Shown one piece after another: positions 8,676 through 62,587 of a stretch of 64,000 bases of DNA. The DNA comes from Thioalkalivibrio thiocyanodenitrificans ARhD 1 (GTDB taxonomy: Bacteria > Pseudomonadota > Gammaproteobacteria > Ectothiorhodospirales > Ectothiorhodospiraceae). The DNA is taken from the NCBI RefSeq assembly GCF_000378965.1, contig NZ_KB900536.1:2977407-3041406 (forward strand). The letters run 5' to 3'. Under the pieces are notes generated by a model, which saw nothing but the letters and a program-made list of their open reading frames with translations, was not told the DNA's origin and searched no databases. The stretch's first letter is position 1; every line of letters starts with the position of its first letter. Both the position numbers and the translations under genes were made by a program.

Positions 8676-8679
8676 TAAG

Positions 8680-8712
8680 GCAGTGGCAAGTGGCAAGTGG
8701 CAAGTGGCAAGG
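8680..8712. repeat. Tandem GTGGCAA heptamers
   Basis: Four adjacent AAGTGGC units lie in the short rnfC-rnfD spacer. Similar units occur at 17257-17283 and 62475-62507. Confidence 0.75.
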
Positions 8713-8739
8713 AAATGCAAGGACAACTCCGCTGCCTGA

Positions 8740-13780: not shown

Positions 13781-13838
13781 CGTTGTCAGTGGTCCGTTGT
13801 CCTTTACAACTGACAACTGACAACGGACCACTGACCAA
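13781..13838. repeat. GTTGTCAGTGGTCC palindrome
   Basis: Perfect complementary arms (GTCAGTGGTCCGTTGTC near 13785-13801 and its complement at 13819-13835) include a repeated ACAACTGAC word in the loop. It fills the spacer between metG and mtnB and would form a hairpin after metG, or in the leader of mtnB. Confidence 0.85.
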
Positions 13839-17249: not shown

Positions 17250-17256
17250 ATTCAGT

Positions 17257-17283
17257 GGCAAGTCTCAAGTGGCAAGTGGCAAG
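17257..17283. repeat. GTGGCAA words between apbC and dcd
   Basis: AGTGGCAAGTCTCAAGTGGC and further AAGTGGC units. The same words, with the same CAAGTCTCAAG variant, lie at 62475-62507. Confidence 0.7.
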
Positions 17284-19444: not shown

Positions 19445-20866
19445 ATGTCCATAGAAGCCGTGTTGGGACTCTGGAGCGACGCCATGGTTCTGTCCGTGGT
19501 GATCTGGCTGGTACTGATAGTGGCGGTGCTTTACGCGGGCCGGCGCTGGATCGAGCCCCTCGGGACGGCCCTGTTTCAGGGCGTGTATCACCTGCTGCGA
19601 TTGAGCGCCCGATCTGTCCGGGCGGCCGCGCGTCACGTGGAGCAACGCCATCGGGCGTACCTTCGGGCCCTCGAGCGCGAGCATCTGGATCATCAGCTGT
19701 ACCGCGAACTGCACGGTCTGCACGATCGTGTGAACCGTGATCTGGGCGGGTATCCGGTGTTGCAAAGGGCCATGCACGAGCAGATCCAGCGCCTGGAGCA
19801 GGATTACCACGCGGCCGAGGCATTGCCGCCGGCGGAGCCGCCCTGGCTGCGCACGGTGGCCGAGCTGGCAAAGAACCAGCCCCATGGTGACCCGGCCGTG
19901 GCCCGCGTCCTGGAGGATATCCATGACGGCCTGCAACGGGCCGGCCGCGCCGCGCAGGACGAGTACCACGCTGCCAGCCGCGAGCGTCTTGAACTGCTGC
20001 GGGCCATGCTGCCCGCCTGGCGGGCTCTGGGCGAACGTCTGAATGCGGTGGAACACGCCATCCAGCGCGTCGTGTCCAGAAGCCGCCAGGTGGATGAGAT
20101 CGTGGGCCGCCATGAAGCCCTGGCCCAGGGCGGGGCGGAGATCGATGCGGGTCTGGTGGCGGGCTCGGTGGGCCGCCTGCTGGTGAGCGGCGCCCTGCTG
20201 GCGCTTGCGGCGCTGGCCGCCGTGGTGAGTTTTCACCTGATCGAGCGCCCCATGGCGGAGGCGGTGGGCCTCGCGGATCACATCGGTCCCTGGCCCCTGT
20301 CAGCACTCGCTTCCGGCCTGCTGATTCTGCTGGCCGTGGCCACCGGTCTGCTGATGACGGAAACCCGGCACCTGACCCGTCTGGTCCCGGGTCTGGGCAA
20401 CGTGGATCCGGGTGTCCGGCGTTGGCTGTTCGGGGCCGGGTTGCTGATGCTGCTGGTGGTGGCCGGTCTGCAGGGGGCCCTGGCCTTCTCCCGGGAGTTT
20501 CTCATTGCGCAGGATGAGCGGCTGACCCTGATGATGACCCTCGAACCGGACGTCTCGGCAACGATGGTGCGGTGGATTCCCATGCTCACGCAGATGGGGA
20601 TGGGCTTTATCCTGCCGCTGCTCGTGGCCCTGACAGCCGTGCCCCTGGAATCCTTCCTGCGCCACCTGCGCGTGGTGCTCGGCGTGACGCTGGCCGTGGC
20701 GCTGCGTCTGCTGGGTTTTGTGCTGGGCTTCCTTGCCCGGCTGGTGCGTTGGGTGGCGTCGCTGGTGCGGGTGGTCTACGGCCTGCTGATCTTCGTGCCC
20801 GTGACGATCGGGCAACGGGTGCGGGAGAAATCCAACGGGCGGGAACCGGGGGAGCGTGAGGCGTGA
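19445..20866 (+). CDS. Unknown multi-pass membrane protein, 473 aa
   Basis: I do not recognise a family. The start is the ATG at 19445 with AAGGGGG just upstream. One helix at residues ~14-32 is followed by a long Arg/Glu/His-rich helical segment (~residues 45-235, coiled-coil-like: RAYLRALEREHLDHQLYRELHGLHDRV). At least five hydrophobic helices then occur (about 245-265, 290-310, 330-352, 385-405, 415-465). The pattern of a membrane anchor, long cytoplasmic coiled coil and C-terminal membrane bundle recalls structural or mechanosensitive proteins, but no motif supports any function. It is monocistronic and convergent with the rhodanese gene. Confidence 0.75.
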   Translation: MSIEAVLGLWSDAMVLSVVIWLVLIVAVLYAGRRWIEPLGTALFQGVYHLLRLSARSVRAAARHVEQRHRAYLRALEREHLDHQLYRELHGLHDRVNRDLGGYPVLQRAMHEQIQRLEQDYHAAEALPPAEPPWLRTVAELAKNQPHGDPAVARVLEDIHDGLQRAGRAAQDEYHAASRERLELLRAMLPAWRALGERLNAVEHAIQRVVSRSRQVDEIVGRHEALAQGGAEIDAGLVAGSVGRLLVSGALLALAALAAVVSFHLIERPMAEAVGLADHIGPWPLSALASGLLILLAVATGLLMTETRHLTRLVPGLGNVDPGVRRWLFGAGLLMLLVVAGLQGALAFSREFLIAQDERLTLMMTLEPDVSATMVRWIPMLTQMGMGFILPLLVALTAVPLESFLRHLRVVLGVTLAVALRLLGFVLGFLARLVRWVASLVRVVYGLLIFVPVTIGQRVREKSNGREPGEREA

Positions 20867-23999: not shown

Positions 24000-26300
24000 A
24001 TGCTGCTTGCCGTCCTTTCGGGATTCCTCATTGCCGCCATCGCCCCCTGGGTCCACCGGTTCAGCGGTCGGCACAGCGGCTGGGTGCTGGCGGTCCTGCC
24101 CGGGGCCCTGTTCGTCTACTTCCTGGGTTTCATCCCCGAGATCGCCGACGGCGGCCAGGTGCGCTTCGTCTATCCCTGGGTGCCCGGGCTGGATATCCAG
24201 CTCTCGTTCCTGGTGGACGGGCTGTCCCTGCTGTTCGCGCTGCTGATATCGGGCATCGGCTTCTTCATCGTCTCCTACGCGGGCCGCTACCTGGAGAAGC
24301 ACCGGGATGTGGGACGTTTCTACGTGCTGATCCTGGCCTTCATGGGCTCCATGCTGGGCCTGGTGCTGGCGGACAACCTGGTCGCCCTGTTCGTGTTCTG
24401 GGAGCTGACCAGCATCACCTCCTACCTGCTGATCGGTTACAACCACGAGGACGCCCGGGCACGTTATTGCGCGTTGCAGGGGCTGTTCGTCACCGTGGGC
24501 GGGGGGCTTGCGCTGCTCGTGGGTCTTGTCATGCTCGCCGTGGCCGGCGGCAGCTATGAACTCTCGGAGATCCTCGCCGGCGATGGCTTGCAGGAGCACG
24601 CGTGGTACCTGCCCATTCTGCTGCTGGTGCTGGCGGGCGCCTTCACCAAGTCCGCCCAGGTCCCGTTTCACTTCTGGCTGCCCAACGCCATGGCGGCGCC
24701 CACGCCCGTCTCCGCCTACCTGCATTCCGCCACCATGGTCAAGGCAGGGGTGTACCTGCTGGCGCGTCTCAATCCGGGGTTGGGCGGCACGGACGAATGG
24801 CTTCTGATCCTGTCCCTGTTCGGCGGCGTGACCATGCTGACGGGCGTCTTCCTGGCGGCGCGCAGCACGGGCGTGAAGCAGGTGCTTGCCTACTCGACGG
24901 TCATGGCGCTTGGCACGCTCACCATGCTCATCGGCGTGGGCACGGAGACGGCCATCATCGCGGCGGTCACCTTTCTCATGGCGCACTCGCTCTACAAGGG
25001 CGCGCTGTTCCTGATCGCGGGCATCCTGGATCACGAGGCCGGCTGCAAGGACTTTCTGCAGACCGGCGGTCTGCGCAGCGCCCTGCCGGTGACCACCTTC
25101 TTCGCCGCCATCGCGGCCCTCTCGCTGGGCGGCGTGATCCCCATGTTCGGCTTCATCGCCAAGGAACTGATGCTGGAGGCCGTCCTGGAGGCCCCGACGG
25201 TCTCGGGTGTGCTCACGGCCCTGGCTGTCGCCACCGCCATCCTGGGCGTGCTGGTGGCGGCCGTCGTCGGCATCAAACCCTGGTTTGGCCCACGCGTGAA
25301 GACACCAAAGGACCCTCACCACGAAGCGCCTCCGGCCATGCTGGCCGGCCCCGCGGTGCTGGGCAGCCTGGGCCTGCTGTTCGGGCTTGCGCCCATGCTG
25401 CCGGAATGGGGCGTGCTGGGGGCTGCGGCCGGTGCCGTGTACGGCGCTCCGCTGGACCCGAACCTGTCGCTCTGGCACGGCATCAACGCGCCGCTGATGA
25501 TCAGCGCCGCGAGTCTGCTGCTGGGCTTAGCACTGTACACGCAATGGGACCGTTTCCGCGCCGCCTTCGCGTGGCTGGACGGGGTCGCCGGCAGCATCGG
25601 CCCGGAACGCCAGTATGACCGCACCATGGCGGGCCTCGTCCGGATCTCGGACTGGCAGACGCGCGTGCTGCAGAACGGCTACCTGCGTTACTACCTGATG
25701 ACGATCCTGATCATGACCCTCGTGATGGTCGGTGTCAGTGCGGAGCTTTACGGGATCTCGGTCGGGGAACTGTCCTTCGCCGACATACAGATCCAGGAGT
25801 GGACCGTGCTGGGCATGCTGCTGGCCGCGGCGGCCGTTGCGGTGGTGATCCGCTCGAGACTTGCGGCGGTGGCCTCTCTGGGGGCGGCGGGCTTCGGTGT
25901 CGCGCTGGTGTATGTGCTGTTCAGCGCACCCGACGTGGGCATCACCCAGGTGCTGGTGGAAACCCTCACGGTGCTGCTGCTGGTACTGGTGCTGTTCCGG
26001 TTGCCCGGGTTCCTGGACCTCTCCACGCCCCTGGTGCGGGCACGCGATGCGCTCATCGCCCTGGCCGTGGGCGGCATGATGACCCTGATCATGCTTTCCA
26101 CCCTGCACATGCGGGCCCACGAAAGCATCTCCGCCTACCACGTGGCGGAGAGCATGCCCTCCGGGTACGGGCGCAACATCGTCAACGTGATCCTGGTGGA
26201 TTTCCGTGCCCTGGATACCCTCGGTGAGATCTTCGTGTTGGCACTGGCCGCCGTGGGTGTCTACGCCATGATCAAGCTGCGCGCGGAGGACCGGAAATGA
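24000..26300 (+). CDS. mrpA: Mrp Na+/H+ antiporter subunit A
   Basis: 766 aa. The NuoL-like core has the conserved Glu in [16 protein letters not shown] and Lys in [19 protein letters not shown], the quinone-antiporter signature shared with complex I. The C-terminal ~200 residues hold the DUF4040/MbhE-like helices ([22 protein letters not shown] and [23 protein letters not shown]). It is the first gene of a complete mrpABCDEFG set; group I Mrp systems export Na+ in exchange for protons and matter for alkaline pH homeostasis. The end overlaps mrpB by 4 bases. Confidence 0.96.
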
Positions 26301-26725
26301 GCACCATGCATTCCCTGATCCTGCGCACCGCAGGCAATTTCCTTCTGCCCCTGCTGCTGCTGTTCTCCATCTTCCTGCTCCTGCGCGGCCACGACGAGCC
26401 GGGAGGCGGCTTCATCGGCGGGCTGGTGGCGGCATCGGCCATCGTGCTGAACCTGTTCGCCCTGGAGATCAAGTCGGCCAAGGCGGTTCTCTGGGTGGAC
26501 CCCCGCCATGTGCTCGGTATCGGCATGACACTGGCGGTGCTGTCCGCAATACCGGCCGTGTTCATGGGCGAGCCCTTCTTCACCGCCCAGTGGCTCACCT
26601 TCGAGGTTCCCGCCGTAGGCGAGCTCAAGGTGGGCACGGTGCTGATGTTCGACATCGGGGTGTACCTGGTGGTGATCGGGGCGGTGCTGACGATCATGTT
26701 GTCGCTGGCGGAGGCGGAGGACTGA
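26297..26725 (+). CDS. mrpB: Mrp antiporter subunit B
   Basis: 142 aa with four membrane helices. The family motif is [17 protein letters not shown] (residues ~30-46). It is translationally coupled to mrpA (ATGA). The stop codon stands 3 bases before the inverted-repeat element that separates it from mrpC. Confidence 0.95.
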
Positions 26726-26727
26726 TT

Positions 26728-27266
26728 TGAAGTGGGAAGGGTGAATTGGGAAGTGGGAATGGAAGTACGAAGTGAGAATTGGGAAGTGGGAAGTGGGAAG
26801 TGGGAGATAACAAGTGAATTGATGGGGGCAGGGAGGCTCCGGGGATATGGACGACTTGCAGGGCAGGACGAAGCGGCTGGCGCTTGAGGTGATCCGGCTG
26901 GTGGGGAGATTGCCGGGGTCCACGGAAGGCCGAATCATCGGCAGGCAGGTGCTGCGCTCGGCGACATCGGTGGGCGCGCACTATCGGGAATGCCGGCACA
27001 GTCGCTCCCGGGCGGAGTTCAGAAGCAAGCTGGGCCTCGCGTTACAGGAGCTTGAAGAGACGCTCTACTGGCTGGAGCTGCTGAAGGAATCCAATGTGTC
27101 CGCGGGCCCGAGGCTTGCGGCGCTGATGAACGAATGCGACGAGTTGATCGCCATACTGATCACATGTATCAAAACGACCAGACAATCGGGCAGACGTTGA
27201 TGGCCAACGCAAGGGTGAACGAAGCGGGCTCCCATTCCCACTTCCCAATTCCCCCTTCCCACTTCA
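26728..27266 (+). mobile_element. 539-bp inverted-repeat element carrying an S23/IVP-type gene inside the mrp operon
   Basis: Near-perfect terminal inverted repeats of 36 bp (26728-26763 and 27231-27266, two mismatches) enclose one ORF (26847-27200). The left end is followed by tandem GGGAAGT heptamers (26778-26804). The element fills almost the whole gap between mrpB (stop 26725) and mrpC (ATG 27280), genes that normally abut. ORF-less palindromes sharing the end sequence lie at 20864-20953 and 48885-48949. It resembles the intervening sequences of bacterial 23S rRNA, which also consist of a long stem around an S23 gene. No target-site duplication could be defined with confidence, so mobility is inferred. 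Confidence 0.75.
26847..27200 (+). CDS. Four helix bundle protein, 23S rRNA intervening-sequence (S23/IVP) type
   Basis: 117 aa, the usual size of the family (~115-125). It has the signature order: [17 protein letters not shown] (helix 1), [26 protein letters not shown] (with the 'Q-x-x-RSA-x-S-x-xANxxE'-like core), [26 protein letters not shown] (helix 3), and a C-terminal helix of [15 protein letters not shown]. These proteins form basic pentameric four-helix bundles related to the DGR accessory protein Avd; function unknown, nucleic-acid binding assumed. It is the only gene within the inverted-repeat element, in the same direction as the mrp genes. Confidence 0.9.
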
Positions 27267-27279
27267 GGAGCGTTTCCCC

Positions 27280-27627
27280 ATGGAAACGCTGATGGCCTTC
27301 GCCGTCGGCGGCCTCTATGCCGCCGCCGTGTACATGATCCTGCGCCGCTCCATCGTGAAGCTGGTGATCGGGCTCATCCTGCTGTCCAACGCGGCCAACC
27401 TGCTGATCTTCACGGCGGCGGGCATGGACCGGGGCCTTCCGCCGCTGGTGGCCGAGGGTGCGCTGGTGCCGGACGGACCGGTGGCGGATCCGCTGGCGCA
27501 GGCGCTCATCCTCACGGCCATCGTGATCGGTTTCGGCGTGCTGGCCTTTGCCGTGGTGCTTATCCACCGGGCCTACGAGGTGGTCGGTGCCGATGACATG
27601 GACCAGATGAAGGATACCGACACATGA
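27280..27627 (+). CDS. mrpC: Mrp antiporter subunit C
   Basis: 115 aa, NuoK-like, with three membrane helices; [27 protein letters not shown] is typical. CAGGAG stands 12 bases upstream of the ATG, within a few bases of the element's right end, so the element provides or preserves its ribosome site. It overlaps mrpD by 4 bases. Confidence 0.95.
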
Positions 27628-30272: not shown

Positions 30273-30278
30273 CCTTTG

Positions 30279-30399
30279 GAAGGATGAAGGATGAAGGATG
30301 AAGGTTAAGTTAAACCCCTGATCTCCCCCCCTCATGGGGAGGGCCGGGGTGGGGTGGTTTCATTCAACCTTCATCCTTCAACCTTCAACCTTTGACTCA
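30279..30399. repeat. Palindrome built from GGATGAA heptamers, mrpG/osmC junction
   Basis: The left arm (30279-30306) has four GGATGAA units and the right arm (30366-30395) has the complementary TTCATCC/TTCAACC units. An inner CTCCCC..GGGGAG hairpin is at 30322-30341. It lies between convergent genes and overlaps the end of the osmC-like gene. The same heptamers form the array at 41665-41755. Confidence 0.8.
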
Positions 30400-41644: not shown

Positions 41645-41664
41645 GTCCGCTGTATCCTCCGTGC

Positions 41665-41755
41665 TTCATCCTTCATCCTTCATCCTTCATCCTTCATCCT
41701 TCATCCTTCATCCTTCATCCTTCATCCTTCAACCTTCAACCTTCAACCTTCAACC
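41665..41755. repeat. Tandem heptamer array: 9 x TTCATCC then 4 x TTCAACC
   Basis: Thirteen exact 7-bp units occur without interruption, between the cytochrome c gene end and the 54-aa gene. Not a CRISPR (no spacers). The same heptamers form the arms at 30279-30399. Confidence 0.95.
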
Positions 41756-41768
41756 TCCATCCTTTCAA

Positions 41769-62474: not shown

Positions 62475-62587
62475 GCAGTGGCAAGTGGCTAGTGGCAAGT
62501 CTCAAGGTTTAAACCCCCTCTCCCTCAGGGAGAGGGTTGGGGTGAGGGTGGTTCTACCTGCCCCCGGCCGCTTGAGACTGGCCAGTT
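62475..62587. repeat. GTGGCAA/CTTGAGACT palindromic spacer between nrdA and nrdB
   Basis: The left word AGTGGCAAGTCTCAAG (62491-62506) is partly mirrored by CTTGAGACTGGCCAGT (62572-62587). Between them is an inner CCCTCTCCCTCAGGGAGAGGG hairpin, which would form in the nrdAB mRNA and could adjust the nrdA:nrdB ratio. Confidence 0.7.

Follow-up and report, generated by a model that had tools for sequence, protein, structure and literature searches.

Why does a gene of the S23/IVP family, the family encoded by 23S rRNA intervening sequences, lie within the mrp operon of Thioalkalivibrio thiocyanodenitrificans ARhD 1? The gene is found in a stretch of 64,000 nucleotides of this genome (contig NZ_KB900536.1, positions 2,977,407 to 3,041,406; hereafter the window), where a 539-bp insert separates mrpB from mrpC and the S23/IVP gene is framed by mirrored arms of tandem 7-nt words (heptamers). 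The same layout was found beside S23/IVP genes (hereafter IVP genes) over many phyla: arrays with a period of 7 and convergent polarity, one word per protein type, and a word that is coupled to the protein. The insert is probably a two-part repeat element, in which convergent arrays of a 7-nt word flank an S23/IVP gene and serve as the protein's own address. The layout suggests a family of repeat elements not recognised so far, and a likely partner for the puzzling heptamer repeats of bacteria.

The element between mrpB and mrpC and its relatives in the genus

An earlier note, made from the letters of the window, had described 36-bp terminal inverted repeats around an intact gene. The repeats are real, with arms of 38 nt, and they are composed of tandem heptamers, GGGAAGT/GGGAATT on the 5' side and the reverse complement on the 3' side, the 5' array running on to 26810 (Table 1). 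The mrpC ribosome site was retained, as had been stated. Scored as an inverted repeat, the two 260-nt flanks of the gene gave 32, as compared with a median of 9 for 1000 random placements in the window, of which 35 reached 12 and five reached 32; such placements could fall on the element itself or on other arrays of the window. The predicted RNA fold of the element was far more stable than those of shuffled sequences (z −4.5, 0/100 shuffles). Unpaired changes were present in the arms of this genome (G000) and of two congeners (G003 and G004), indicating that the stem is not strictly kept. The element lies outside a 23S rRNA gene, between mrpB and mrpC, and an Rfam search of positions 20000–45000 gave no match.

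Table 1. Features of the mrpB/mrpC element and other heptamer arrays of the window.
Feature	Position	Strand	Evidence or remark
mrpB, upstream neighbour	26297..26725	+	PF04039 (MnhB), E 1.9e-36
5' arm, convergent array of GGGAAGT/GGGAATT units, pairs with 3' arm	26728..26765	+	38-nt inverted repeat, 95% complementary (repeat search)
Inner extension of 5' heptamer array	26768..26810	+	lag-7 island; 21 nt (3 heptads) shorter in G003/G004
Probable Shine-Dalgarno GGGAGG of IVP gene	26831..26836	+	inferred, read from sequence
S23/IVP four-helix-bundle protein, 117 aa	26847..27200	+	PF05635 E 9.6e-18; TIGR02436 E 3.2e-25
3' arm, heptamers ACTTCCC/AATTCCC (reverse complement)	27229..27266	+	inverted repeat; lag-7 island
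mrpC Shine-Dalgarno AGGAG, shares base 27266 with last base of arm	27266..27270	+	sequence
mrpC, downstream neighbour	27280..27627	+	PF00420 (Oxidored_q2), E 6.4e-21; NCBIfam Na+/H+ antiporter subunit C
Convergent GAAGGAT hairpin without open reading frame, after mrpG	30275..30397		also in G002; G003/G004 hold short GAAGGA/TGAAGG stub
GAAGGAT array (reads ATCCTTC), intergenic	41655..41765	-	word differs among congeners
Convergent GGGAAGT hairpin without open reading frame, starts at apparent stop codon	48881..48956
GGCAAGT array (word of L001 IVP)	8677..8715	+	lag-7 island
GTTGTCA-type array (word of L003 IVP)	13803..13838	-	lag-7 island
GGCAAGT array	17254..17283	+	lag-7 island
GGCAAGT array	62477..62506	+	lag-7 island

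The assignment of the open reading frame (ORF) to the S23/IVP four-helix bundles was confirmed. Its product passed the curated cut-offs of PF05635 (64.8 bits against 33.8) and TIGR02436 (88.5 bits against 24). It contained no HUH/Y1 tyrosine transposase domain, PF05635 being the only Pfam family returned and TIGR02436 being accompanied in NCBIfam by a below-cut-off match to NF008911. The AlphaFold (AF2) monomer model has four helices, with a predicted local distance difference test score (pLDDT) of 92.6. Foldseek matched this model to the solved S23 structures 2rld (E 1.5e-6) and 2gsc, and more weakly to 4dwl, the Avd protein of diversity-generating retroelements (DGRs; TMq 0.76–0.79, E 0.026–0.08). 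Solved S23 structures of the 2rld/2gsc type bear titles that call the protein hypothetical or its function unknown. Each of the two entries holds five chains, and by analogy the window protein may be a pentameric ring. The ratio of non-synonymous to synonymous substitution (dN/dS) against G003 was 0.11 for the IVP gene and 0.09 for mrpC; the IVP protein is under purifying selection. No transposase was present among the eight mrp-operon proteins profiled, and no reverse transcriptase adjoined the gene among the mrp neighbours tested, no genome-wide search being made for either enzyme. Among 50,697 phage records there was one weak IVP match.

An IVP gene was present between mrpB and mrpC in 5/5 genomes of the genus. 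In G001, what was seen at one contig end is the 3' half of the element together with mrpC; a second contig end carries a 5' half (L084, L155), which may adjoin mrpB. T. denitrificans (G002) has a different IVP at the junction, 55% identical to that of the window and set in GAAGGAT arms. Junctions free of the element, for which a comparison of relatives had been proposed, were found in the family: an IVP gene or a period-7 array was present in 0/18 of the junctions read, and an IVP over the cut-off in 0/32 of the other family genomes searched. The statement that mrpB and mrpC usually abut held for 11 of these 18 relatives, in which stop and start codons lie within 5 nt; it did not hold for two with 19–48 nt or for five with 103–157 nt. 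The five long spacers (L040, L043, L044, L045 and L046) contain neither heptamers nor an IVP. No target-site duplication was readable, the element-free sites of the relatives being too diverged.

Within its own 3.75-Mb genome the element is one of several. Four PF05635 genes lie above the cut-off, and 4/4 are placed within inverted heptamer arrays, no two sharing a word: GGGAAGT for the window IVP, GGCAAGT for the IVP between the ribosomal protein S9 gene (rpsI) and tRNA-Gln (L001), TTCAAAG for the IVP between two succinyl-CoA-ligase-type genes, and a GTTGTCA-type word for the IVP adjoining an ABC transporter gene (L003). The search for more copies of the ends that the note had suggested showed that the arm words recur, GGGAAGTGGGAAGTGGGAA having 130 genome-wide matches with at most two mismatches as compared with 23 for the reversed control. 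With four IVP genes in arrays and repeated arm words, the idea that the element is unique was rejected.

ORF-less hairpins of IVP words are scattered through this genome. A total of 264 kb, which drew on ten stretches partly placed at known GGGAAGT matches, contained 32 islands of repetition at lag 7, while the other lags from 4 to 15 gave 0–4 islands each, except for the harmonic 14 with 24; 100 kb taken at fixed, even spacing contained seven lag-7 islands. When neighbouring arrays of opposite orientation were counted in 371 kb for six chosen words, 23 convergent pairs and 0 divergent pairs were obtained, matching the layout of the IVP element, and many arrays were single. Like the 264-kb count, the 371-kb count is not a random one.

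At orthologous sites, arrays differed among congeners in presence and in word. The intergenic site at 41655–41765 of the window is such a hot spot, with GAAGGAT in this genome, TCAGCGT in G002, CCCCTAA in G003 and no array in G004; in G003 the downstream border is the same and the upstream side is rearranged. The words of G002 and G003 at this site are IVP-arm words in the same genomes (L065 and the 3' arm of L073, respectively). G003 also carries an ORF-less heptamer hairpin in frame inside a sugar-nucleotide dehydratase gene (L073, 1120–1222), the frame remaining open over 380 codons. This gene is rmlB by eye and falls in the Pfam epimerase family; the hairpin fills a variable loop of the rmlB-like coding sequence and adds a net 63 nt relative to four relatives. 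A clean empty site for the sugar-nucleotide element was not obtained in G004, where the gene is a diverged copy (74%). Array lengths among relatives differed by whole heptads. In G002 an IVP gene that has decayed, with a stop codon in frame, is still framed by arrays (L082).

Period 7 and mirrored flanks beside IVP genes across genomes

The best repeat period was 7 in 83–95% of IVP flanks in three locus sets, as compared with 12% of controls. Set 1 was drawn from the genus genomes and 150 genomes of the phylum and comprised 48 loci over the PF05635 cut-off and five below it, from 55 loci, with L081 and L084 left out because they lie at contig ends. Orthologues within the genus, near copies (L088/L094, L099/L100) and three fragmentary genes (L108–L110) are among the 48. 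The best lag among 4–13 was 7 in 41.5/48 upstream and 44.8/47 downstream flanks, and in 21.8/181 control windows. A locus's own flanks reached an inverted-repeat score of at least 12 in 37/48 cases, as compared with 1/90 shifted controls (0/2000 permutations). Set 2 took the best 80 of the 190 loci in genomes found by the window-type protein, spans about a dozen phyla and holds four Thioalkalivibrio loci that repeat genes of G001–G003. Its best lag was 7 in 67.0/76 upstream and 73.5/77 downstream flanks, and 63/73 loci reached a score of at least 12. Set 3 was obtained by searching 369 Gammaproteobacteria genomes with Xcc0516, leaving out four loci whose genes were already used (L320, L337, L338 and L339), and gave 20.0/24, 22.3/25 and 21/23, respectively. 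A near-identical Xcc0516 was absent from this sample (best 58–61%), so that Xanthomonas campestris itself was not seen.

The five below-cut-off matches are Avd-type loci, and lag 7 was best in 0/10 of their flanks; a reverse transcriptase lay beside 4/5 of them and an HRDC protein beside 2/5. Seven genomes lacking an IVP gave no lag-7 islands in evenly spaced 100 kb (7/7), and two genomes of the genus gave seven and four per 100 kb. Seventeen plasmid records had an IVP match, and all six that were read, three of them near copies, have heptamer arms by eye. Five plasmid elements (L350, L351, L352, L353 and L354) lie between large genes, several of which carry defence or restriction-modification annotations: DrmD and a PglX or MmeI-type enzyme in Planktothrix, a helicase and an N6 methylase in Chlorohelix, and DUF1156 and Swt1-HEPN in Gloeocapsa. 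The Planktothrix plasmid elements L350 and L352 differ in array length by whole heptads, at least in the 5' array.

The hosts of IVP genes include mrp, succinyl-CoA ligase subunits, rpsI with tRNA-Gln, sugar-nucleotide genes, plasmid defence-type genes and 23S rRNA. With ORFs called mechanically at 113 loci, both neighbours ran the same way as the IVP gene at 58 and against it at 14; 23 were mixed, and at 18 a neighbour was not seen.

The rRNA host was met once. T. denitrificans carries an IVP element with CAGAT-type heptamer arms inside its 23S rRNA (L074, 1420–1890), near position 1206–1218 of the large-subunit (LSU) model, which we take to be the helix-45 region by E. coli numbering. It was the only 23S location in a scan of 165 loci for rRNA motifs, a total in which some genes are entered more than once and which also counts the five Avd-type loci; the rRNA location therefore looks like an exception. 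The 23S element of Coxiella is reported to lie in helix 45, to have GACAGAT heptamers before its S23 ORF and to be excised by RNase III, and the heptamers of this one element are treated only as a variable stretch (PMC4990558). The kinship that the earlier note had drawn with S23-coding 23S intervening sequences was borne out by family, fold and the heptamer arms of the T. denitrificans 23S element. Its picture of a singular mRNA counterpart of an rRNA element was not, given one rRNA location in 165 and given that the heptamer arrays, which it left unnamed, are the defining feature. As T. denitrificans holds another IVP and word at mrp as well as an IVP in 23S rRNA, the classical intervening sequence of 23S rRNA appears to be one special case, the same element placed in an rRNA gene.

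Coupling of word and protein type

Proteins 51–60% identical to the window IVP, from Cyanobacteria to Planctomycetes and Acidobacteria, mostly had GAAGGAT or a near variant in their arms, and 106 exact GAAGGAT units were counted beside window-type proteins. The consensus word was GAAGGAT in 21/72 loci and at most two letters away in 68/72, in a set from which a similarity threshold had removed about four loci with words unlike GAAGGAT. Heptamer similarity and protein similarity were correlated over 115 loci (Mantel r 0.51), among diverged pairs (r 0.41) and among diverged pairs within the canonical branch (r 0.38), with 0/999 permutations in each case; the Thioalkalivibrio repeats of set 2, loci with short flanks and L082 were left out of this set.

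Two genome-wide predictions, that GAAGGATGAAGGATGAA and the GGGAATC word should go with their IVP types, held. GAAGGATGAAGGATGAA was present in 2/150 genomes of the phylum, this genome and G058 (Fisher 8.9e-5), and these are the only two of the 150 in which a window-type IVP was identified, a count that rests on the loci fetched and on match scores. It was also present in 38/50 genomes picked by a window-type protein, in which the IVP's own arms can count. GGGAATCGGGAATCGGG, a three-unit GGGAATC pattern, occurred in 1/369 genomes (G730), its nine matches being spread over five contigs. The IVP of G730 is encoded on a different contig from these and has GGGAATC arms; an Xcc0516-type IVP was present in 36/369.

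A single residue may contribute to the coupling. Serine at residue 107 was found together with C or T at word position 4 in 11 loci, with two loci having C/T without serine, three serine without C/T, and 56 neither. S107 thus goes with GAACGAT/GAATGAT and C107 mostly with GAAGGAT (Fisher 8.6e-9, post hoc), the switch having occurred at roughly four places on a weak tree. A general scan of residues against word positions in the 72 sequences was not significant by permutation, except marginally for word position 1 (8/200). Residue 107 is a candidate for setting word specificity.

Explanations and known systems

In the proposed mechanism, the IVP protein would form a pentameric ring that binds the arrays, as DNA or as transcript, with roughly one heptad per subunit. 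Through this binding the element, and ORF-less hairpins in trans, would be kept and copied with host enzymes, in a relation much like that of RAYT proteins to REPINs. One such element would have entered the mrpB/mrpC junction before the genus split, leaving the mrpC ribosome site intact, with a protein that is still constrained. On a wider reading, which we judge to be evenly balanced between right and wrong, S23/IVP proteins would be pentameric rings that read a 7-nt address and drive the heptanucleotide arrays of bacteria. The class would extend over about a dozen phyla. The 23S intervening sequences would be one of its special cases, the DGR Avd would be a relative taken over by a reverse transcriptase, and single residues such as 107 would set the word.

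Several observations weigh against the two-part element as proposed. No movement was seen, and neither a target-site duplication nor a cleanly empty site for a recent, complete element was found. Beyond the genus, seven genomes that bear an IVP gave 0, 0, 0, 0, 1, 0 and 0 lag-7 islands per 100 kb, so that wide spread in trans is not general; the idea that ORF-less arrays abound in every IVP genome fails outside the genus in these samples and was rejected. Arrays had a median of 4.6/4.4 units and a mode of 4 heptads, not 5, leading us to reject arms of exactly five heptads fitted to a pentamer; unit number does not settle the fit of one heptad per subunit. The order of units was mirrored between arms only modestly (29 up and 15 down of 55 loci), and no set consists of independent loci, since orthologues and near copies are included. 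Of the 50 genomes picked by a window-type protein, 12 lacked the exact word, and the reversed control matched in six. Among 149 Planctomycetota word and protein were only weakly associated once diverged proteins were counted, the GAAGGAT pattern occurring in 3/31 genomes with any IVP match and in 2/118 without (Fisher 0.06); counting close proteins only, the figures were 2/3 and 3/146 (Fisher 0.003). This genome has many GAAGGAT arrays (88 overlapping matches to GAAGGATGAAGGATGAA), yet none of its four IVP genes is framed by that word. Perhaps the window protein serves these arrays too, or their partner was lost. Finally, word and protein could be inherited together through shared descent rather than binding; the retention of the word at 51–60% protein identity argues for function.

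TRAP binds triplets in mRNA, and an IVP ring might similarly bind heptamer arrays in mRNA and set the translation or decay of neighbouring genes, the arrays being regulatory sites and not mobile DNA. We consider this rather unlikely. It would fit the purifying selection, the orientation bias, the position of arrays beside stop and start codons, and the place of the structural relative Avd in a solved RNA–protein particle (8ub7, 8ube); TAACTGA heptamers upstream of start codons have also been proposed as sites of an unidentified binding protein (PMC4679880). Against it, the host genes are diverse, and arrays appear, vanish and change word among congeners.

It is distinctly unlikely that the insert is an mRNA intervening sequence, whose stem in mrp mRNA would be cut by RNase III, as in the 23S case, and the operon message split. 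Such processing would suit the strong predicted stem, the neighbours co-oriented with the IVP gene (58 against 14) and the published excision of the heptamer-bearing Coxiella element (PMC4990558), but many arrays are single or form ORF-less hairpins and the arms in G000, G003 and G004 have unpaired changes. Nor would it account for the coupling of one word to one protein or for purifying selection on the protein.

A miniature inverted-repeat transposable element (MITE) moved by a conventional transposase, with the IVP gene as passenger, is quite improbable: terminal inverted repeats and ORF-less short copies are what it would predict, but the eight mrp-operon proteins tested, in a survey that did not extend to a genome-wide transposase search, include no transposase, and one word per IVP type over many phyla fits a passenger poorly. 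Ordinary short tandem repeats made by replication slippage, with IVP genes nearby by coincidence, are barely credible, for while array lengths differ by whole heptads and heptanucleotides are reported as over-represented repeats (PMC4692102, PMC4679880), chance or slippage alone is contradicted by period-7 enrichment far above controls, the inverted layout, cognate words, the word–protein correlation with its permutation tests, and 0 divergent pairs.

If the two-part element is as we propose, one answer may serve two puzzles, the role of S23 proteins and the abundance of heptanucleotide repeats, which are reported to outnumber every other class of longer simple repeats in most of the repeat-rich genomes surveyed (PMC4679880). 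It would account for the 23S rRNA intervening sequences and would be a further protein-addressed repeat system, working like REPIN-RAYT but based on an unrelated protein; a small protein coupled to a 7-nt word would also offer a directly testable recognition code. A link between S23/IVP proteins and heptamers was not found in the open-licence literature, subscription journals lying outside the search: heptamer papers came without a protein and S23 papers without the link.

The known systems each share some of these features. The 23S rRNA intervening sequences of Coxiella and Leptospira have an S23/IVP protein, terminal inverted repeats able to form a long stem, and heptamers beside the ORF (PMC4990558), whereas the window element lies between protein genes, RNase III excision of it being conjectural. 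The dispersed heptamers GGGAATC of Xanthomonas and GGGGA(C/T)T of Nostoc likewise form arrays near gene ends, in Xanthomonas often as convergent inverted pairs, and GGGAATC frames the IVP gene of G730; unlike IVP arrays, they are described as G-quadruplex repeats with no protein linked, 'S23' and 'four helix' having 0 matches in the text (PMC4692102). TAACTGA of marine Beggiatoaceae also occurs as mostly intergenic heptamer arrays, for which the author suggests a repeat-binding protein as a possible mobile element, but that protein is not identified and inverted pairs are rare (PMC4679880). The DGR Avd (4dwl, 8ub7) has the same four-helix fold, and differs in that Avd-type loci adjoin a reverse transcriptase (4/5) or an HRDC protein (2/5) and have no heptamer arrays. 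RAYT genes encode REP-associated tyrosine transposases, which are HUH tyrosine nucleases, whereas the IVP protein is an S23 four-helix bundle; the RAYT repeat is a REP palindrome and the IVP repeat a tandem heptamer array, whose movement is conjectural. The two are alike in that a low-copy protein gene is flanked by a short repeat whose inverted pairs are also scattered elsewhere, and in that protein and repeat sequences are coupled (PMC3116915, PMC8049555, PMC8266576). In none of the known kinds tested do the defining features all match those of the window element; the proposed system would work like REPIN-RAYT and is built of parts previously known apart.
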